From Tichowtungia aerotolerans (lineage in GTDB: Bacteria; Verrucomicrobiota; Kiritimatiellia; Kiritimatiellales; Tichowtungiaceae), in NCBI RefSeq assembly GCF_009905215.1, contig NZ_CP047593.1, forward strand, positions 1,864,900 to 1,928,899: a DNA stretch of 64,000 nt, written 5' to 3'. The position numbers and the translations under genes were made by a program. Every line of letters starts with the position of its first letter. Positions within the stretch are counted from its first letter, which is position 1. Positions 22,451 to 34,372 of this stretch are shown here, in pieces. The notes under the pieces were generated by a model, which had not been told where the DNA came from, ran no database searches, and saw only the letters and a list, made by a program, of their open reading frames with translations.

Positions 22451-23611
22451 ATGAATTTACGGACGGTTTCCACTCCCTGTTTTATTGTTGATGAGGCGCT
22501 GGTACGGCGGAACTGCGAAATCCTCGCATCTGTTAAAGAACGGACCGGATGCAAGATCCTGCTGGCGCTCAAAGGTTTTGCCTGCTGGCCGCTTTTTCCA
22601 ATGGTTGGAAAATACCTCGACGGCGTCTGCGCCAGCTCCCCGTGGGAGGCGCGCCTCGGCCGTGAGGAATTCGGCAGGGAAGTCCATGCTTTTGCTGCTG
22701 CTTATTCGGACGCCGATTTTGCGGAACTGCTGACCCTTTGCGATGAGATTGACTTCAACTCGTTCCATCAACTGAATCGATTCCGTGATGTGGCGGAACG
22801 CGACCTCCGGGCGCGTTTGAGCGCGCTCGGAGAGCCCGTTCCACCTGTTAAAATCGGACTGCGCATTAACCCCGAATGCTCCACGCAAGATCATGCCATT
22901 TATGATCCCTGCGCGCCGAAGTCCCGCCTTGGAATCCGGCGGGCGGATTTTGAAGGACAAAGCCTCGACGGTATTTCCGGACTGCATTTCCATACGCTGT
23001 GTGAACAGAACGCCGATGCACTCGAAAAAACGCTGGCCGCAGTCGAAGAAAAATTCGGCGAGTTTCTGCCGCAGATGGAGTGGGTCAATTTCGGCGGCGG
23101 ACACCACATTACGCGCGACGACTATGATGTTGATCGGCTTTGCGAGCTCATTAATGCGTTTAAGGCGAAATACGGTGTGCAGGTGATTCTGGAGCCGGGC
23201 GAAGCGGTTGCGCTCAACGCGGGAGTGCTGGTTGCTTCCGTGCTCGATGTGGTTCACAACGAAATGGACATTGCCATTCTCGATGTTTCCTGCACCTGCC
23301 ACATGCCGGATGTGATGGAGATGCCGTACCGACCGGTTATCACCGGGGCCGGGGAGTCCGGCGAAAAGGCGCATACTTACCGGTTGGCCGGTCTCAGCTG
23401 TTTGGCCGGCGATGTCATCGGCGACTGGTCTTTTGATGAACCGCTGAAGCCGGGCGATCGGTTGGAGTTTCTCGACATGGCCCACTACACCATGGTCAAA
23501 ACCACGTTTTTCAACGGCATTCAGCATCCTTCCATCGCCATCCAGCGCGGCGACGAACTTGAGGTTGTTCGCAAGTTTAATTATCAGGATTACAAAAACC
23601 AATTAGCTTAA
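22451..23611 (+). CDS. nspC: Carboxynorspermidine decarboxylase
   Basis: 386 residues. PLP-dependent fold III enzyme; STPCFIVDEALVRRNCEIL and LALKGFACW place the PLP lysine at K41. WVNFGGGHHITRDDYD, LEPGEAVALNAG and DVSCTCHMPDVMEMPYRP are conserved NspC blocks, the Cys of SCTCHMPD being the active-site residue on the partner subunit. It decarboxylates carboxy(nor)spermidine made by the 18685-19881 dehydrogenase. No strong SD is seen before the ATG. The word TTCCAATGGTTGGAA (22596-22610) is read in frame as FPMVGK in a conserved stretch. Confidence 0.95.
   Translation: MNLRTVSTPCFIVDEALVRRNCEILASVKERTGCKILLALKGFACWPLFPMVGKYLDGVCASSPWEARLGREEFGREVHAFAAAYSDADFAELLTLCDEIDFNSFHQLNRFRDVAERDLRARLSALGEPVPPVKIGLRINPECSTQDHAIYDPCAPKSRLGIRRADFEGQSLDGISGLHFHTLCEQNADALEKTLAAVEEKFGEFLPQMEWVNFGGGHHITRDDYDVDRLCELINAFKAKYGVQVILEPGEAVALNAGVLVASVLDVVHNEMDIAILDVSCTCHMPDVMEMPYRPVITGAGESGEKAHTYRLAGLSCLAGDVIGDWSFDEPLKPGDRLEFLDMAHYTMVKTTFFNGIQHPSIAIQRGDELEVVRKFNYQDYKNQLA
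22596..22610. repeat. 15-bp palindrome inside nspC
   Basis: TTCCAATGGTTGGAA, exact arms, encoding part of LFPMVGKYL. Confidence 0.8.
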
Positions 23612-23704: not shown

Positions 23705-23728
23705 TACATACATGCGTGTATGTATGTA
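23705..23728 (+). promoter_or_regulatory. AcrR-type TetR operator
   Basis: TACATACA-TGCG-TGTATGTA plus a further TGTA repeat. The arms match the 24-bp E. coli acrR/acrAB operator (TACATACAT...ATGTATGTA). It sits 32 nt before the TetR start, where binding would block the whole efflux operon. Confidence 0.85.
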
Positions 23729-23759
23729 TAACGCGTACCCAGAACTTGGAGGAAGTAGG

Positions 23760-24425
23760 ATGGCAAGACGAACCAAAGAGGAAGCGGACGCAACGCGCGA
23801 GAGCGTGTTGATGGCCGCATTGGATCTGTTTGCGGAAAAAGGGTATTCGCGAACGACACTCGCAGGCATTGCTAAACGAATCGGTATGACGCGCGGAGCG
23901 GTGTACTGGCATTTTGACAACAAAGAGGCACTGCTTGCTGCATTGATTGATCATGTGCACGAGCTGAAAGAGGACGTGGTCCATTCGCAGATTTCTAACA
24001 TTCAGACAATTGACGATCTGCGAAAAGCCTGCATCCTGCACGCACAGATGGTCGAGAGCGACCCCGTAGTTCACAAGTTTGAGTTTTTTATGATGTATCA
24101 GATGGAATGGTCCGAAGAACTGCTGGAGCAGACCAAGCGCAATATGGATGAGCTCCGTGAAAATCCGCTGGACAGTTTTAAAAAACATTTCAACCAGCCT
24201 CAAATTGCTGCACGTTTAAATCCGGGAGTTGATACGAATCTTTTAGTGATGACTTTGGCATCCTTCTGGGTCGGTGCCTGTAAAATATGTCTGGGGTATC
24301 ACTTCCCGGATTCAGAGGTGGTTCGTGAAGACGGTGAGACGACAGGAACAGGAGTCAGTTTTGTAAAAACCGTGGAGCGCGGTTTCGATTTAATTATGAA
24401 TGGGGTTTTAAAGAAAGAGGCATGA
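23760..24425 (+). CDS. acrR: TetR-family efflux repressor, AcrR-like
   Basis: 221 residues from ATG 23760 with GGAGG upstream; an ATG at 23712 lies inside the operator and is rejected. ARRTKEEADATRESVLMAALDLFAEKG and IAKRIGMTRGAVYWHFDNKEALL are close to the AcrR/TtgR DNA-binding domain. The C-terminal ligand-binding domain is helical. It likely represses its own operon through the site at 23705-23728 and is released by hydrophobic drugs. Its stop overlaps the region of the adaptor's start. Confidence 0.92.
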   Translation: MARRTKEEADATRESVLMAALDLFAEKGYSRTTLAGIAKRIGMTRGAVYWHFDNKEALLAALIDHVHELKEDVVHSQISNIQTIDDLRKACILHAQMVESDPVVHKFEFFMMYQMEWSEELLEQTKRNMDELRENPLDSFKKHFNQPQIAARLNPGVDTNLLVMTLASFWVGACKICLGYHFPDSEVVREDGETTGTGVSFVKTVERGFDLIMNGVLKKEA

Positions 24426-24427
24426 CG

Positions 24428-25531
24428 ATGAATAAAAAAATGATTTTTGCGGGCGTGGGGGTTGTCTTGGTCGCCGGAGCCGGCGGCTGGTTTCTTCGCG
24501 GCATGGCCGGCGCCAAAGGCCCCGGCATGCCGGGGATGGGCGGCATGCAGATGCCGCCGCCGGCGGTCAATGCCATGGAGATCCGTCCCTCCTTCCTGCG
24601 CCCCGCCGAGGAGTTTATCGCCCGGGTCGAGCCCGTTCAGGATGTGATGATCCGCAGCGAAATTTCCGGAATGATTGAAACCGTTCATTTTTCCGAGGGG
24701 GCTCAGGTTCGCGAAGGCGACGTGCTCTTCACCATCGACAGGCGCAGCTATCAGGCCGCCGCCGATGCGGCGGAGGCCGATCTGCTGCTTGCCCGGCGGC
24801 TGTATGAGCGGCTGCAGAAGGCCGATGAGCGCAGCGTTTCCAAATCCGATCTCGAAACGGCTGAAAGCGATCTGCTGCGGGCGCAGGCCGCCTTCGATGC
24901 CGCACAGGTGGATCTGGAGCGCACGGAAATCAAGGCGCCTGTCAGCGGGCGCATCGGTTCGGCGCTGATCAAAAAAGGCAACTATGTTACGCCGGCGTCC
25001 GGGGACCTGGCGCGCATTGTGCAGATCGATCCGATCCGGGTGACCTTTTCGATGACCGACCGCGAGTATCTCGCGCTTCGGCAGCGGGAACTGGCCGGCG
25101 ACGGCCGCGTGCGCGTCGCCCAGGTTCGGCTGGCGGACGGCTCCACCTTTGATGCCGTCGGCAGGAAGGATTTTGACGACAACGCCATCAACCCGGCGAC
25201 CGGCACGATTGCCGTCCGCTACCTGTTCGAAAACAAAGACCAGCTGCTGCTCCCCGGCGGTTTCGTGACGGCGCTGATCCGCAACTCCGACGCCGCCGCG
25301 GGGATCCTGATTCCGCAGAAGGCGGTGCTGGTCGATCAGCAGGGAGCCTATGTGCTCACGGTGGATGAGGCCGGTTCTGTGGGAACGGCGCGGATTGCGC
25401 CGGGTCAGCAGGTCGGCACCGGCATCACCGTGCTGTCCGGACTGAAAGAAGGCGACCGGATTATTGTCGACGGCGTGCAGAAGGCACAGCCGGGGGCGAC
25501 GGTCAGTGTGACTTTGCTGGAGGATAAATAA
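24428..25531 (+). CDS. RND efflux periplasmic adaptor (MFP)
   Basis: 367 residues from ATG 24428 (GAGG 7 nt upstream; an ATG at 24422 is too close). An N-terminal hydrophobic segment is followed by a Gly/Met/Pro-rich linker ([14 protein letters not shown]), the lipoyl halves ([28 protein letters not shown] and [20 protein letters not shown]), a coiled-coil hairpin between them (about residues 105-160), then beta-barrel and membrane-proximal domains. No lipobox Cys, so it is anchored or secreted. It bridges pump and outer-membrane channel. It overlaps the pump gene by one base. Confidence 0.93.
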
Positions 25532-28500
25532 TGATTTCCCGAGTGTTCATCGAGCGTCCGCGACTGGCGGGCGTCGTCTCTATTGTTTTAATGCTGGCGG
25601 GGGTTCTGTCCATCGCCTCGCTGCCGATCGCCCAGTACCCGCAGGTGACGCCGCCGCAGATCACGGTGCGCGCCAGCTATCCGGGCGCCGATGCCGAAGT
25701 GCTGGCCGCCACGGTGGCCGGCCCGATTGAGGATGCCGTCAACGGGGTCGATGACATGATTTACATGTCGTCGACCTCCGACAGTTCCGGTTCCTACATG
25801 CTGACGGTCAGTTTCGAGGTCGGCACCGATCCGGACATCGCGCAGGTCCAGGTGCAGAACCGCGTTGCGCAGGCCGAGCCGCTGCTGCCGAGCGAAGTGA
25901 CTCAGCAGGGCGTGGTCGTGCAGACGCGCTCCTCCGACATGCTCGGTTTCCTGATGATCCGCTCGCCGGGCGGAAGCCGCAACCAGCGCTTTCTCAGCGA
26001 CTATGCCACGAGGGTGATTCAGCCGGCGCTCGAGCGAATCCCCGGCGTCAGCAGCGCGCAGGTGTACGGTCCGAAGTACAGTATGCGCGTCTGGATGGAT
26101 GCCGACCGCCTCTCCGCGCTCGGCCTGTCGGCCTCGGATGTCACCTCGGCCATTCAGCGGCAGAATATCCAGGCCTCGGTCGGTTCGGTCGGCAGCGTGC
26201 CGGGCGACGGTTCGGTGCAGGTCACCTATACACTCAAGGCCGAAGGCCGCCTGAACGACCCGGCCGACTTTGAAAACATTGTGGTGCGCACCGGCGAAAA
26301 CGGCGCGGTGGTGTACCTCAAGGATGTCGCCCGCATCGAAAAAGGGGCCGACCGCTATCTCTATTCCGGTTTCTACAACGGCGAGTCCGCGGTTCCGATT
26401 GCGATCAGCCGCTCGACCGGTTCCAATGCGCTCGAGGCCATGAACTCACTGCGCCGGGAGATGGAGTCGCTCAAGCAGATGTTCCCGGACGACATGGAGT
26501 ACGTGCTGCCCTACGATGCGACCGAAGTGGTGCGCGTCAGTATCCGCGAAATCGTCACGACGCTGCTGCTCACGGTCTTCCTCGTCGTCCTCGTCTGCTA
26601 CACCTTCCTGCAGGACTGGCGCGCGACGCTGGTGCCGACGCTGACCATCCCGGTTTCGCTCTGTGCCACATTCGCGGTGCTGATGGCGTTCGGCTACAGC
26701 ATCAACACCCTGACGCTCTTCGGGCTGGTGCTGGCGATCGGCGTGGTGGTGGACGACGCGATCGTGGTGGTGGAGCGGGTGCTGCATCTGATGGAGCACG
26801 AAAACCTCGACCACAAGGCGGCGACCATCAAGGCGATGGAGCAGGTCAGCGGCGCGATTGTCGCCACGACGCTCGTGCTGCTCGCCATCTTTGTGCCGAT
26901 CGGTTTTGTCGGCGGGATCACCGGGAAAATCTACCAGCAGTTTGCCGTCGCCATTTCCGCCGCGGTGCTGTTTTCCACGGTGAACGCGCTGACGCTCAGC
27001 CCGGCGCTCTGCGCCACGATGCTTCAGATTGTCAAACCGAAGAAGCACGGCCCGCTTCGCTGGTTCAATACCGGCCTGGGACGGGTGCGCGGCCATTATG
27101 TCAACGCCACGACCCGCCTTGCGCGTCGCCGGATTGTCACCCTGTTCGTGCTGCTCGGCGTGCTGGCCGGAATCTGGCTGGTCGCCTCCCGCAGCCCGTC
27201 GGCCTTTCTGCCGGATGAGGACCAGGGGGTGATCTTCGGCGCGGTGCAGCTTCCGGAGGGGGCGAGCAGCGAGCGCACCCATGAACTGCTCCGTGAAGTC
27301 ATCACGCCGCTGCGCGATGAGCCGGGAGTGATGTCGATTGTCGAAATCACCGGCTTCAGCCTGATCGGTGGTTCGGGTGAAAACCTGGCCTTCGTGGTGA
27401 TCGACCTCGACAGCTGGGATAAACGCCTCTCCCCGGAGCTGCAGGTCGACGCCCTGCGCCAGAAGTTCCAGGCGCGGCTCTCCGCCGTGCCCGGCGCCCG
27501 GATCGACCTCTTCACGCCGCCGGCCATTGCCGGACTCGGTATGAACAGCGGTCTGGACATCCGCCTGCAGGCGATTGATAACAGCGATCCGCATCGGCTG
27601 AGCGCGGTGCTCAACAGCTTTCTGATGCAGCTCAACGCCGCGCCGGAAATCCGCTACGCCTTCAGCGCCTACTCCTCGGCAACGCCGCACCTCTTCCTGC
27701 AGGTGGACCGCGTGAAGGCTTCGCTGATGCAGGTGGAGATCAATGAGATCTTCTCCACCCTGCAGAACTATTTCGGCTCGCGCTACGTCAACGACGTCAA
27801 CTTTGAGGGACAGGTCAACAAGGTGATCGTGCAGGCCGACTGGCAGTTCCGCGACCGGGTGGATGACATCCGCAAGCTCTACGTCAAGAGCCGCGCCGGC
27901 GCCATGGTTCCGCTCGGCAGTATTATGACGATTTCTCCGACGCTGGCTCCGCGGCTGGTCGACCGCTACAACAAATTCACGGCGGCGACCATCTCGGCGA
28001 TCATCACGCCCGGCGTCAGCAGCGGCGACGCGATGACGGCGGTCTCGGCGATCGCCCGCGACCACCTGCCCGAAGGCTACAGCTTCGATTGGTCGAGCCT
28101 GAGCTATCAGGAGGCGAAGGCGGCCGGCGGCTCCACCATTCTCATCGCCATGGCGCTGGTCTTCGGCTTCCTCTTCCTGGTGGCCCAGTACGAGAGCTGG
28201 AGCATTCCGCTGCCGGTGATGTTCTCGACAGCGGTGGCCACCCTCGGCGCGCTGATCGGCCTGAAGATGATGGATCTGCCGCTCAGCATCTACGCGCAGC
28301 TCGGGCTGATCCTGCTGGTCGGCCTCGCCAGCAAAAACGCCATTCTGATTGTCGAGTTCTCCAAAACCCGGCGCGAGGAGGGGCTCTCCATCGTCGACGC
28401 TGCGGCCGACGGGGCCGGGCAGCGTTTCCGCGCCGTGCTGATGACCGCCTTCACCTTTGTGCTCGGCGTGCTGCCGATGGTGTTTGCCACCGGCGCCGGT

Positions 28501-30033
28501 GCCAAGGCCCGGCAGGCCATCGGATCGACGGTGTTCTGGGGGATGACCGCGGCGACGCTCTTCGGGATTATCCTCGTGCCCGCGCTCTACACGCTGTTCC
28601 AGACCCTTCGTGAGCGGGGACATGCATTCCGCCTGCGGCACACCCACAGCAAACTCCACCTGCTGGTGATTCTGCTGGTGCCGTTCTTCTTCGGCGGCTG
28701 TCTGACCGTCGGCCCGGATTATGAACAGCCCGAACTGCCGGCCGTTGGAAGCGCTGAATTCGAGACCCCTGCCGACTGGTGGACCACGCTCGGCGACCCG
28801 CTGCTTGCAGAGCTCGTCGATGAAGCGCTGCAGAACAACCACGACCTGCAGTCGGCGGTTGCCGCGGTGCGTGCCGCCCGGGCCCGGCTGAATATTGCCC
28901 GGGCCGCGTACGGCCCGCAGCTCGATGCCGGCGGCAGCTTTACCCGCAGTAAATCCGGGGATGATGTTTCCGTGGTGAGCAGCGGCGAGCGCGATGTCTA
29001 CAGCGCCGGCTTCGATGCCGCGTGGGAAATCGACATCTTCGGCGGTACGCGTCGTTCATCCGAAGCTGCGCTCGCCGCGTTTGAGGCGCAGGATGCCGCC
29101 CGGGCCATGGTTGAAGTTTCGCTCGCCGCCGAAACCGCGCAGGCCTATGTGCAGCTGCGCGAAGCTCAGCAGCGCCTGCGGGTTGCTCAGGAAAACCTGA
29201 GCCTGCAGCAGGAAACCTTCGATCTGCTCCAGTCCAGATTTGACAGCGGGCTGATCAACGAGCTGGCCTACCAGCAGTCCAGGGCCAACCTGGAAAGCAC
29301 CCGGGCCGCCGTCCCGCAGCTTGAGACGGTGCTGGAGCAGAGCTTTAATGCGCTGGCCGTGCTGACCGGCGCCATGCCCGGAACACTTCAGGAGCGCTTT
29401 GCCGAGGTCCGGGAAATCCCGGCCGCGACGCCGGCGGATGTAACCGGTATTCCGGCTGACCTGCTGCGCCGCCGTCCCGATGTGCGCGTGGCCGAGCGCG
29501 AGCTCGCCGCGCAGACCGCCCGCATCGGGGTCGCCAAGTCGGATTATTTTCCGAAGCTCCGACTGAACGGCTCCATTGGGGTCGAGGCGCTCAGCTTTGG
29601 CGGACTGTATGATGACGGCAATGAGTTCTACGGCTTCGGCCCCGGCGTGAGCTGGGCCATCTTCCGCAGCGGATCCATTCGCAACAACATCCAGGCGCAA
29701 ACCGCGCTGCAGGAGCAGGCGCTGGCCGCTTACGAGCAGAGCGTGCTCTCCGCTGTGCAGGAGACGCGTGATGCGCTGGCCGCCTTCCGCAACGAGCAGG
29801 TCCGGCTCGACGCACTGACCGCTGCGGCAGACGCTGCGCGCTCTGCCGCCAGGCTCGCCGACGACCGCTACGCAAACGGTCTCGAACCGTTCGACACCGT
29901 GCTCGACGCCCAGCGCGTTCAGCTCCAGCTCGAAGACCGGCAGGTCCAGAGCCAGAGCGAAAGCACGCTCTCCGTCATCCGCCTCTACAAAGCCCTTGGC
30001 GGCGGATGGGGGCAAAGTTTGGCCGACCAATAG
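25531..30033 (+). CDS. RND pump fused to outer-membrane factor
   Basis: 1500 residues in one uninterrupted frame. Residues 1-about 1030 are a complete HAE1-type RND transporter: the proton relay Asp pair is in [18 protein letters not shown] (TM4) and the Lys in [15 protein letters not shown] (TM10). After TM12 comes a basic linker ([15 protein letters not shown]) and a hydrophobic stretch [16 protein letters not shown] ending at Cys1057. From there about 440 residues are a NodT/OprM-type outer-membrane factor ([63 protein letters not shown]). The hydrophobic stretch looks like the factor's old lipoprotein signal, kept as TM13. Whether the mature protein is cleaved at Cys1057 is unknown. Confidence 0.93.
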
Positions 30034-32191: not shown

Positions 32192-34372
32192 ATGGCATCG
32201 CAGAATAAAGACGACAACCGACTGGACGGGCAGGTGGAGCGCATCGTTTTCCGCAACGAGGAAAACGGCTACACCGTGCTGCGCGCCAAGGTGCGCGGGC
32301 ACAAGGACCTCGTCACCGTGGTCGGAACGGCGTCGAGCATCAATCCCGGCGAGTGGCTGGCCGCCGACGGCGAGTGGATCACCGATCCCGGCTACGGACG
32401 CCAGTTCAAGGCCGAAACCATGCGTGCCTCCCAGCCCGATACCATTGAGGGAATCAAAAAATTTCTCGGTTCCGGCATCATCCGCAATATCGGCCCGAAG
32501 TATGCCGAAAAGCTGGTTGATGCCTTTGGGCGCGATGTATTCAACGTCATCGAAAAATCGTCCGGCAAGCTTCTGAAGGTGGAGGGAATCGGCCCCGGCC
32601 GGCGCGCGAGCATTAAAGCCGCATGGGAGGAACAGAAGGGCATTCGCGAGATCATGAGCTTTCTGTTCAGCCATGGGGTGAGTACCGCGCGCGCGTTTCG
32701 CATTCACAAAACCTACGGCGAGCACGCCATCGAGCGGATTCAGCGCGATCCGTACTGCCTCGCCCGCGACATTCGCGGCATCGGTTTTCTGGTGGCCGAT
32801 GGTATTGCCCGCACGCTGGGTATCGCCAAGGATTCCGAGCTGCGCGCCCGCGCCGGGCTCGAATATGTGCTGCAGGAAATGACCACCGCCGGTCACTGCG
32901 CCGTGCCGCGCGGCGACCTGCAGAGCAAGGCGGTCGAGCTGCTCGAAATCCCGCCGGACCGCATCGGCGGCGCGCTTGATCACCTGCTCGAAAACAAGCG
33001 GGTTATTCACGACGAAGACCGCCGCGGCCGCAACCTGATCTATCCGCCCAAGCTGTATTTCGCCGAATGGAACTTCGCCAAAAAGCTGATCGAGCTGAAC
33101 TACGGAAAGCATCCCTGCCCGAAAATCGATTTCGAAAAGGCACTTGAATGGGTGCAGAAGAAAGAAAAGATCGAGTTGTCAGAAAACCAATGCGAGGCGC
33201 TGCGGCTGGCGATTCAGGCCAAAGTAATGGTCATTACCGGTGGTCCCGGTGTCGGGAAAACCACGCTGGTGAATTCCGTCATTCAGGTGCTGCGCGCCAA
33301 GCGAATGAACGTGGTGCTTTGTGCGCCGACCGGGCGTGCGGCCAAACGTCTGAGCGAAACGACCGGGCTGTCTGCCAAAACCATTCATCGGCTGCTGAAG
33401 TTCAATCCCGGCACCGGCGGATTTATCCATAATCAGGAAAACCCGCTGGAAGGCGATGTCTTTATTATCGATGAGTCGAGCATGATCGATCAGGTGCTCG
33501 CACAGCAGCTGCTCGACGCCGTTCCGCAACGTGCGGCGGTTGTTTGGGTCGGTGATGCCGATCAGCTTCCGTCGGTCGGGCCGGGCCGCGTTCTTCGTGA
33601 TGTGATTCGCTCCAAAGCGGTGCCGGTGATCGAGCTGACCGAAATTTTCCGGCAGGCCGCCGAGAGCCGGATCGTAACCGGCGCCCACCGAATCAACCAG
33701 GGGCAGCTTCCCGAGTTTCCAGAGGAGGGTGATAAAAACGCCGATCTCTATTTTGTCGAGCAGCCGGACGCGGATAAAGCCATTGGTGTGATCAAGCGGA
33801 TGGTGAAAGATTCCATTCCCAAGCGGCTTGGGTTCGACCCGATCGAAGATGTCCAGATCCTTACGCCGATGCAGAAAGGCGAGCTGGGAGCCCGCAACCT
33901 GAACCAGGTGATGCAGGCACTGCTCAACCCTCGGGGAAACCAGATTGATCGTTTCGGCGTCATCTATCGCGAGGGCGACCGCGTGATGCAGACCGAAAAC
34001 AACTACGACAAAGATGTCTACAATGGCGACCTCGGTCGCATTGCTGCGATTGACGAGGTGCAGGGAGAAGTCGTCGTGAAATTTGATGATCGCCGCGTGC
34101 TGTATGAGTTTCGTGAAGTCGATGAGCTGATGCATGCCTATGCCATCACCATTCACAAAAGTCAGGGCAGTGAGTATCCCTGCGTGATTATTCCGATGCA
34201 TACACAGCACTTTGTGCTGCTCCAGCGCAGCCTGCTGTACACAGCCGTTACCCGCGCCAAAAAATTTGCGGTGCTCGTCGGCACAAAAAAAGCGATGGGG
34301 CTTGCTGTCTCACGCGCCGATTCCCGCGAGCGCGTCACCACTCTTACCGAACGGCTTCAGAGTCAGAGGTGA
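32192..34372 (+). CDS. recD2: RecD2-family DNA helicase
   Basis: 726 residues. The N-terminal OB-like and helix-hairpin-helix region (FRNEENGYTVLRAKV, GIIRNIGPKYAEKLV, VEGIGPGRRASIKAAW) marks RecD2 rather than RecBCD RecD. Superfamily 1B helicase motifs follow: Walker A ITGGPGVGKTTLVN, motif Ia LCAPTGRAAKRLSE, DEAD-like IIDESSMID, VGDADQLPSVGPG and C-terminal MHAYAITIHKSQGSEYP. It is a 5'-3' helicase acting in DNA repair or replication restart. The start at 32192 has only a weak SD. Confidence 0.96.
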   Translation: MASQNKDDNRLDGQVERIVFRNEENGYTVLRAKVRGHKDLVTVVGTASSINPGEWLAADGEWITDPGYGRQFKAETMRASQPDTIEGIKKFLGSGIIRNIGPKYAEKLVDAFGRDVFNVIEKSSGKLLKVEGIGPGRRASIKAAWEEQKGIREIMSFLFSHGVSTARAFRIHKTYGEHAIERIQRDPYCLARDIRGIGFLVADGIARTLGIAKDSELRARAGLEYVLQEMTTAGHCAVPRGDLQSKAVELLEIPPDRIGGALDHLLENKRVIHDEDRRGRNLIYPPKLYFAEWNFAKKLIELNYGKHPCPKIDFEKALEWVQKKEKIELSENQCEALRLAIQAKVMVITGGPGVGKTTLVNSVIQVLRAKRMNVVLCAPTGRAAKRLSETTGLSAKTIHRLLKFNPGTGGFIHNQENPLEGDVFIIDESSMIDQVLAQQLLDAVPQRAAVVWVGDADQLPSVGPGRVLRDVIRSKAVPVIELTEIFRQAAESRIVTGAHRINQGQLPEFPEEGDKNADLYFVEQPDADKAIGVIKRMVKDSIPKRLGFDPIEDVQILTPMQKGELGARNLNQVMQALLNPRGNQIDRFGVIYREGDRVMQTENNYDKDVYNGDLGRIAAIDEVQGEVVVKFDDRRVLYEFREVDELMHAYAITIHKSQGSEYPCVIIPMHTQHFVLLQRSLLYTAVTRAKKFAVLVGTKKAMGLAVSRADSRERVTTLTERLQSQR

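Follow-up and report, generated by a model that had tools for sequence, protein, structure and literature searches.

The open reading frame at positions 25531–30033 of the window—the whole stretch of 64,000 nucleotides of Tichowtungia aerotolerans DNA that was analysed—encodes an RND inner-membrane pump and an outer-membrane factor (OMF) in a single frame. This raises the question of whether the fusion is genuine and, if so, whether its product works as one protein or is cut into two.

The locus and its two domains

The frame extends over 1500 codons without any internal stop and lies within a single contig, which constitutes the 3.88 Mb genome. The features of the locus are the following, all on the forward (+) strand:

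23712..24425, +: TetR-family regulator, MtrR/AcrR-like
24422..25531, +: periplasmic adaptor (MFP), a separate gene (TIGR01730)
25531..30033, +: fused RND permease–OMF open reading frame, 1500 aa, from ATG to stop
25531..28602, +: RND (HAE1) permease domain, residues about 1–1024 (Pfam, NCBIfam, proton-relay residues)
28603..28653, +: basic linker, corresponding to a signal-peptide n-region, residues about 1025–1041, predicted to be cytoplasmic
28654..28698, +: h-region and lipobox of a putative internal lipoprotein signal peptide, residues 1042–1056
28699..28701, +: Cys1057, predicted lipidation and cleavage site, invariant in 22/22 fused members
28699..30030, +: NodT/OprN-type OMF domain, residues 1057–1500 (NCBIfam, alignment, model)

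Regulator and adaptor thus lie upstream of the fused frame (gene order TetR–adaptor–[RND-OMF]), and the end of the adaptor gene shares one base with the beginning of the fused frame. No second OMF gene adjoins the fused frame. The efflux operon adjoins a gene for a pyridoxal-dependent decarboxylase with an Orn_DAP_Arg_deC C-terminal domain (22451–23611), whose product is likely a carboxynorspermidine decarboxylase, and downstream of the operon lies an ordinary RecD2/YrrC-type helicase gene (32192–34372).

The RND part matches Pfam ACR_tran over residues 2–1023 (model positions 1–1020/1021) and the NCBIfam model TIGR00915 (HAE1) in full length over residues 3–1026, with 1125.8 bits against a cut-off of 940.35; its best matches are MexB/AcrB. 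The proton-relay residues D408, D409, K935, R965/R967, and T972, located by two motifs, are all present—intact, as the sequence-only reading had claimed. As judged by these features, the RND part is an intact HAE1-type permease, with drug transport itself being predicted. The OMF part features two matches to Pfam OEP, starting at residue 1092, and a match to the NCBIfam model TIGR01845 (NodT) over residues 1078–1492 with 358.5 bits against a cut-off of 210.05. From Cys1057 on, it aligns end to end with OprN (3–440 of 444 against 2–446 of the mature chain) and is therefore full length. An AlphaFold model of residues 867–1500 with a mean pLDDT of 72 shows the OprM/OprN fold—four strands and long helices per protomer—and has OprN as its nearest solved structure (TMt 0.77, E 1.9e-25). 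The second strand pair is partly of low confidence, as is the joint, in which the model places a helix of 15 residues. The domain matches and the absence of an internal stop bear out that pump and OMF share one 1500-residue frame, with the joint and Cys1057 located where the sequence-only reading had placed them.

Distribution and origin of the fusion

Separate genes in all close relatives, the case that would speak against a fused gene, were not what a search of relatives returned: the same in-frame RND–OMF joint occurs in 21 further loci from 21 genomes—22 with the window. The 22 loci stem from 22 separate assemblies and, where full length, are 59–74% identical to the window's protein. Besides genomes of the window's own genus and order, their holders include members of a few other families within the class; one of the holders is the Kiritimatiellia MAG Arabian11_MAG_24 (L039). 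Five further candidates picked by open-frame length (G215, G337, G385, G356, and G254) were rejected, being adjacent genes with a stop in between.

In the OMF tree, the fused domains form one clade (support 97/97). Separate RND and OMF genes lie side by side in other Kiritimatiellota, in Synergistota, and in one Hydrogenedentota MAG. In the nearest of these pairs (L043 and L173), the OMF start is preceded by a purine-rich ribosome-binding site and, lying in a different frame, forms an ATGA overlap with the RND stop; a small indel at this overlap could have given rise to the fusion. The fused group of the RND tree also includes five nested genes that are unfused (L022 in genome G023, L023 in G024, L024 in G014, L026 in G019, and L027 in G018). 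These are 69–71% identical to the window's RND part, end shortly after TM12, and have no adjoining OMF gene; together with their nested position, this fits a later loss of the OMF part. A close unfused lineage that seems to have lost this part implies that the linkage of RND and OMF is not indispensable, which counts against the explanation as a polyprotein preferred below. Genome G020 carries a fused copy (L017/L158) in addition to a closely related unfused RND copy (contig C249).

Translation and probable processing at the joint

The sequence before Cys1057 is built like a lipoprotein signal peptide in all three parts, with a basic n-region, a hydrophobic core, and a lipobox. The n-region carries three to five Lys/Arg against zero to two Asp/Glu in 22/22 fused members, and the hydrophobic run before the Cys comprises 13–16 residues in most of them. 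Gly-Cys is invariant in all 22 members while neighbouring positions are variable. A PROSITE-style lipobox pattern fits 20 of the 22 joints, the exceptions L013 and L169 having Asn at −2; within the window's 1500-aa protein, the Cys1057 site is its only match. Asp at +2 is absent in all 22 joints. A lipobox Cys is thus present at the predicted N-terminus of the mature OMF, but it is internal in the protein rather than N-terminal. These counts agree with the view that the stretch resembles the lipoprotein signal of the OMF. The accompanying proposal of a basic linker followed by a hydrophobic TM13 holds in part: charge and hydrophobicity are as expected, whereas the run has the usual length of a signal peptide and is short for a TM13 that stays in the membrane.

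As judged by dN/dS ratios pooled over eight pairs, the joint (31 codons, about 0.13) is under purifying selection, as are the RND part (0.08) and the OMF part (0.16); the linker is hence translated in this frame, and its length changes between members are whole codons. Internal starts were sought at −30 to −13 codons from the Cys, the range where a lipoprotein signal peptide would start. In this range, ATG, GTG, and TTG are all missing from 10 of the 22 joints, the window included, ATG is missing from 18, and no Shine-Dalgarno match of more than three bases at usual spacing was found in the 22 joints. Matches of four to five bases precede three TTG codons at −9 or −11 (L018 and L169), which are too late for a signal peptide and therefore not credible as OMF starts. 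An out-of-frame ATG of the window near 28621, behind GAGCGGGG, was rejected as the OMF start because, read by eye, its frame meets a stop after 15 codons. Ten joints lacking a start codon, together with the lack of a credible Shine-Dalgarno sequence, make a separately initiated OMF unlikely. As judged by these counts, internal initiation is not a conserved mechanism in this clade, and the joint—with no stop and no conserved start or Shine-Dalgarno sequence—points to RND and OMF being made as a single translation product.

LspA is found in 22/22 good genomes of the order. The window's genome encodes Lgt as well as another, separate OMF whose signal resembles that of a lipoprotein (L006). No match to LolA (PF03548) was obtained in this genome, which counts against a lipidated polyprotein; lipoprotein sorting to the outer membrane may proceed via a divergent carrier in this group. 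The distance between Cys and the first OMF helix is 25–30 residues and, hence, at most about 105 Å. No direct contact exists between RND and OMF in the reconstituted pumps MexAB-OprM and AcrAB-TolC (PMC4754349); an OprM–MexA study, as cited there, gives an intermembrane distance of 21 nm. The OprM N-terminus extends upwards from the equatorial domain as far as the outer membrane (PMC8277102). Taking the equatorial domain to lie about half-way up the 100 Å periplasmic barrel, the gap for an uncleaved chain is estimated at near 160 Å. The linker is therefore too short for the pump geometry, rendering an uncleaved chain unfit for a normal pump.

The locus is probably best explained as a polyprotein that receives a lipid at Cys1057 and is cut there, so that RND and OMF arise in a ratio of 1:1. 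The fused gene would be translated as one chain, and the RND part would insert its 12 helices with the C-terminus in the cytoplasm. The basic linker would remain in the cytoplasm, and the short hydrophobic run would be taken up by the translocon like any lipoprotein signal peptide, with the OMF exported behind it. Lgt would then lipidate Cys1057 and LspA would cut just before it. The used signal peptide would remain on the RND part as a short tail at its C-terminus, and the OMF with its lipid would move on to the outer membrane. Every round of translation would yield one pump protomer and one channel protomer—the adaptor being made separately—which would match 3 RND : 6 adaptor : 3 OMF, the stoichiometry proposed for such pumps (PMC4754349). 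Topology, cleavage, lipidation, and the benefit of the 1:1 ratio are predicted features of this model. The sequence-only reading had raised such a polyprotein as a possibility, and its mechanism is very probably right: the fusion is conserved, the joint is under selection, Gly-Cys is invariant, the n-region is positive, and both LspA and Lgt are encoded. In addition, a conserved internal start or Shine-Dalgarno sequence is absent, the geometry argues against an uncleaved chain, and independent fusions carry a matching signal.

Four other explanations were weighed against the polyprotein. That the chain stays whole, with TM13 as a permanent helix and the OMF working tethered to the pump, is unlikely; one open reading frame and a hydrophobic stretch in positive-inside orientation agree with it, but 13–16 residues in most members are few for such a helix, the invariance of Gly-Cys would have no reason without cleavage, and the linker to the OMF does not fit the known pump geometry. 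It is distinctly improbable that an internal start in the joint gives rise to a separate OMF, the read-through fusion being a by-product. An ATG does occur within 30 codons of the Cys in 4 of the 22 joints, the further fusion L149 (see below) has an ATG with AGGA upstream, and the ancestral arrangement had an overlapping ATG. This is opposed by the 10 joints, the window's among them, that have neither ATG, GTG, nor TTG at −30 to −13, by the lack of Shine-Dalgarno sites there, and by the further fusions L150 and L159, whose joints hold no start at all; moreover, with no stop between the parts, the full-length chain would be made anyway.

Cleavage by another linker protease or by signal peptidase I, without lipidation, is in keeping with the signal-peptidase-I-like sites of the other fusions L149, L150, and L177. 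The conserved element of the main clade is, however, the lipobox Gly-Cys (22/22), which makes this route highly improbable for the window. An error of sequencing or assembly, or a decayed fusion, has next to no probability: the loci come from separate assemblies, all parts are under purifying selection, and nothing was found in its favour; sequencing error is ruled out by the same fusion in 21 other genomes.

Other fusions and known systems

Further RND–OMF fusions were found outside this clade, with cleavage sites read by eye. L159 (G259:C326) combines an AcrB-like RND with a NodT OMF, and its joint ends in LTG^CKSG. L150 (G018:C117) and L149 (G044:C146) each combine another RND with a TolC-type OMF and feature the joint sites ARA^Q and SA^Q, respectively. 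L177 is a Hymenobacter plasmid gene annotated as CusA/CzcA, with the joint site VRA^Q and relatives on many Hymenobacter plasmids. No in-frame start codon occurs at −40 to −9 in the joints of L159 and L150, so these must be read as one chain, yet both retain the kind of signal peptide that suits the OMF in question. L149 and L150 share 25% identity over their full length and possibly go back to one event; RND–OMF fusions appear to have at least four separate origins. With somewhat less assurance than for the window itself, the data favour a broader reading: lipoprotein signal peptidase would split a single precursor into a polytopic membrane protein and a lipoprotein, and RND–OMF polyproteins would have arisen several times independently, each retaining an internal signal peptide of the appropriate type, so that the two pump parts are produced together in a 1:1 ratio.

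To our knowledge, polyproteins are rare in bacteria. If cleaved, the window's product would be a naturally occurring example of signal peptidase II processing a signal peptide that follows 12 transmembrane helices and would test what Lgt and LspA need on the N-terminal side. Cleavage would also fix the ratio of pump to channel and dedicate one channel to one pump, unlike shared OMFs such as TolC or OprM. The repeated fusions make the assembly order and stoichiometry of tripartite pumps directly testable.

The RND–OMF fusion as such is already present in public annotation of Bacteroidota. No paper on such a fusion was found in the open literature—weak evidence, with most subscription papers outside the search—and the lipoprotein-processed HAE1 version looks undescribed. 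What appears new relative to the material found is the HAE1–NodT version, its conservation across the class, and the retained internal lipobox.

MexAB-OprM and MexEF-OprN, each an HAE1 RND with a NodT-type OMF, have the same three components and folds as the window's system, with regulator and adaptor upstream. However, RND and OMF are two adjacent genes in these systems, whereas the window has one open reading frame with the OMF signal peptide inside. The CusA/CzcA-family fusion of Bacteroidota (Hymenobacter, WP_324680285.1, 1472 aa) is likewise one frame whose joint contains an internal signal peptide; it differs by its heavy-metal RND, a signal-peptidase-I-like site (VRA^Q), a downstream adaptor, and a separate origin. 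In FbcH, the cytochrome b-c1 precursor of Bradyrhizobium japonicum, an internal signal peptide comes after a polytopic protein of the inner membrane, and cleavage of this peptide yields two subunits in a 1:1 ratio. FbcH is thereby a precedent for the splitting of a precursor at an internal signal peptide, the arrangement proposed on the grounds of sequence for the window's frame. FbcH differs in belonging to a respiratory complex and in being cut by signal peptidase I without a lipid, its product staying at the inner membrane.
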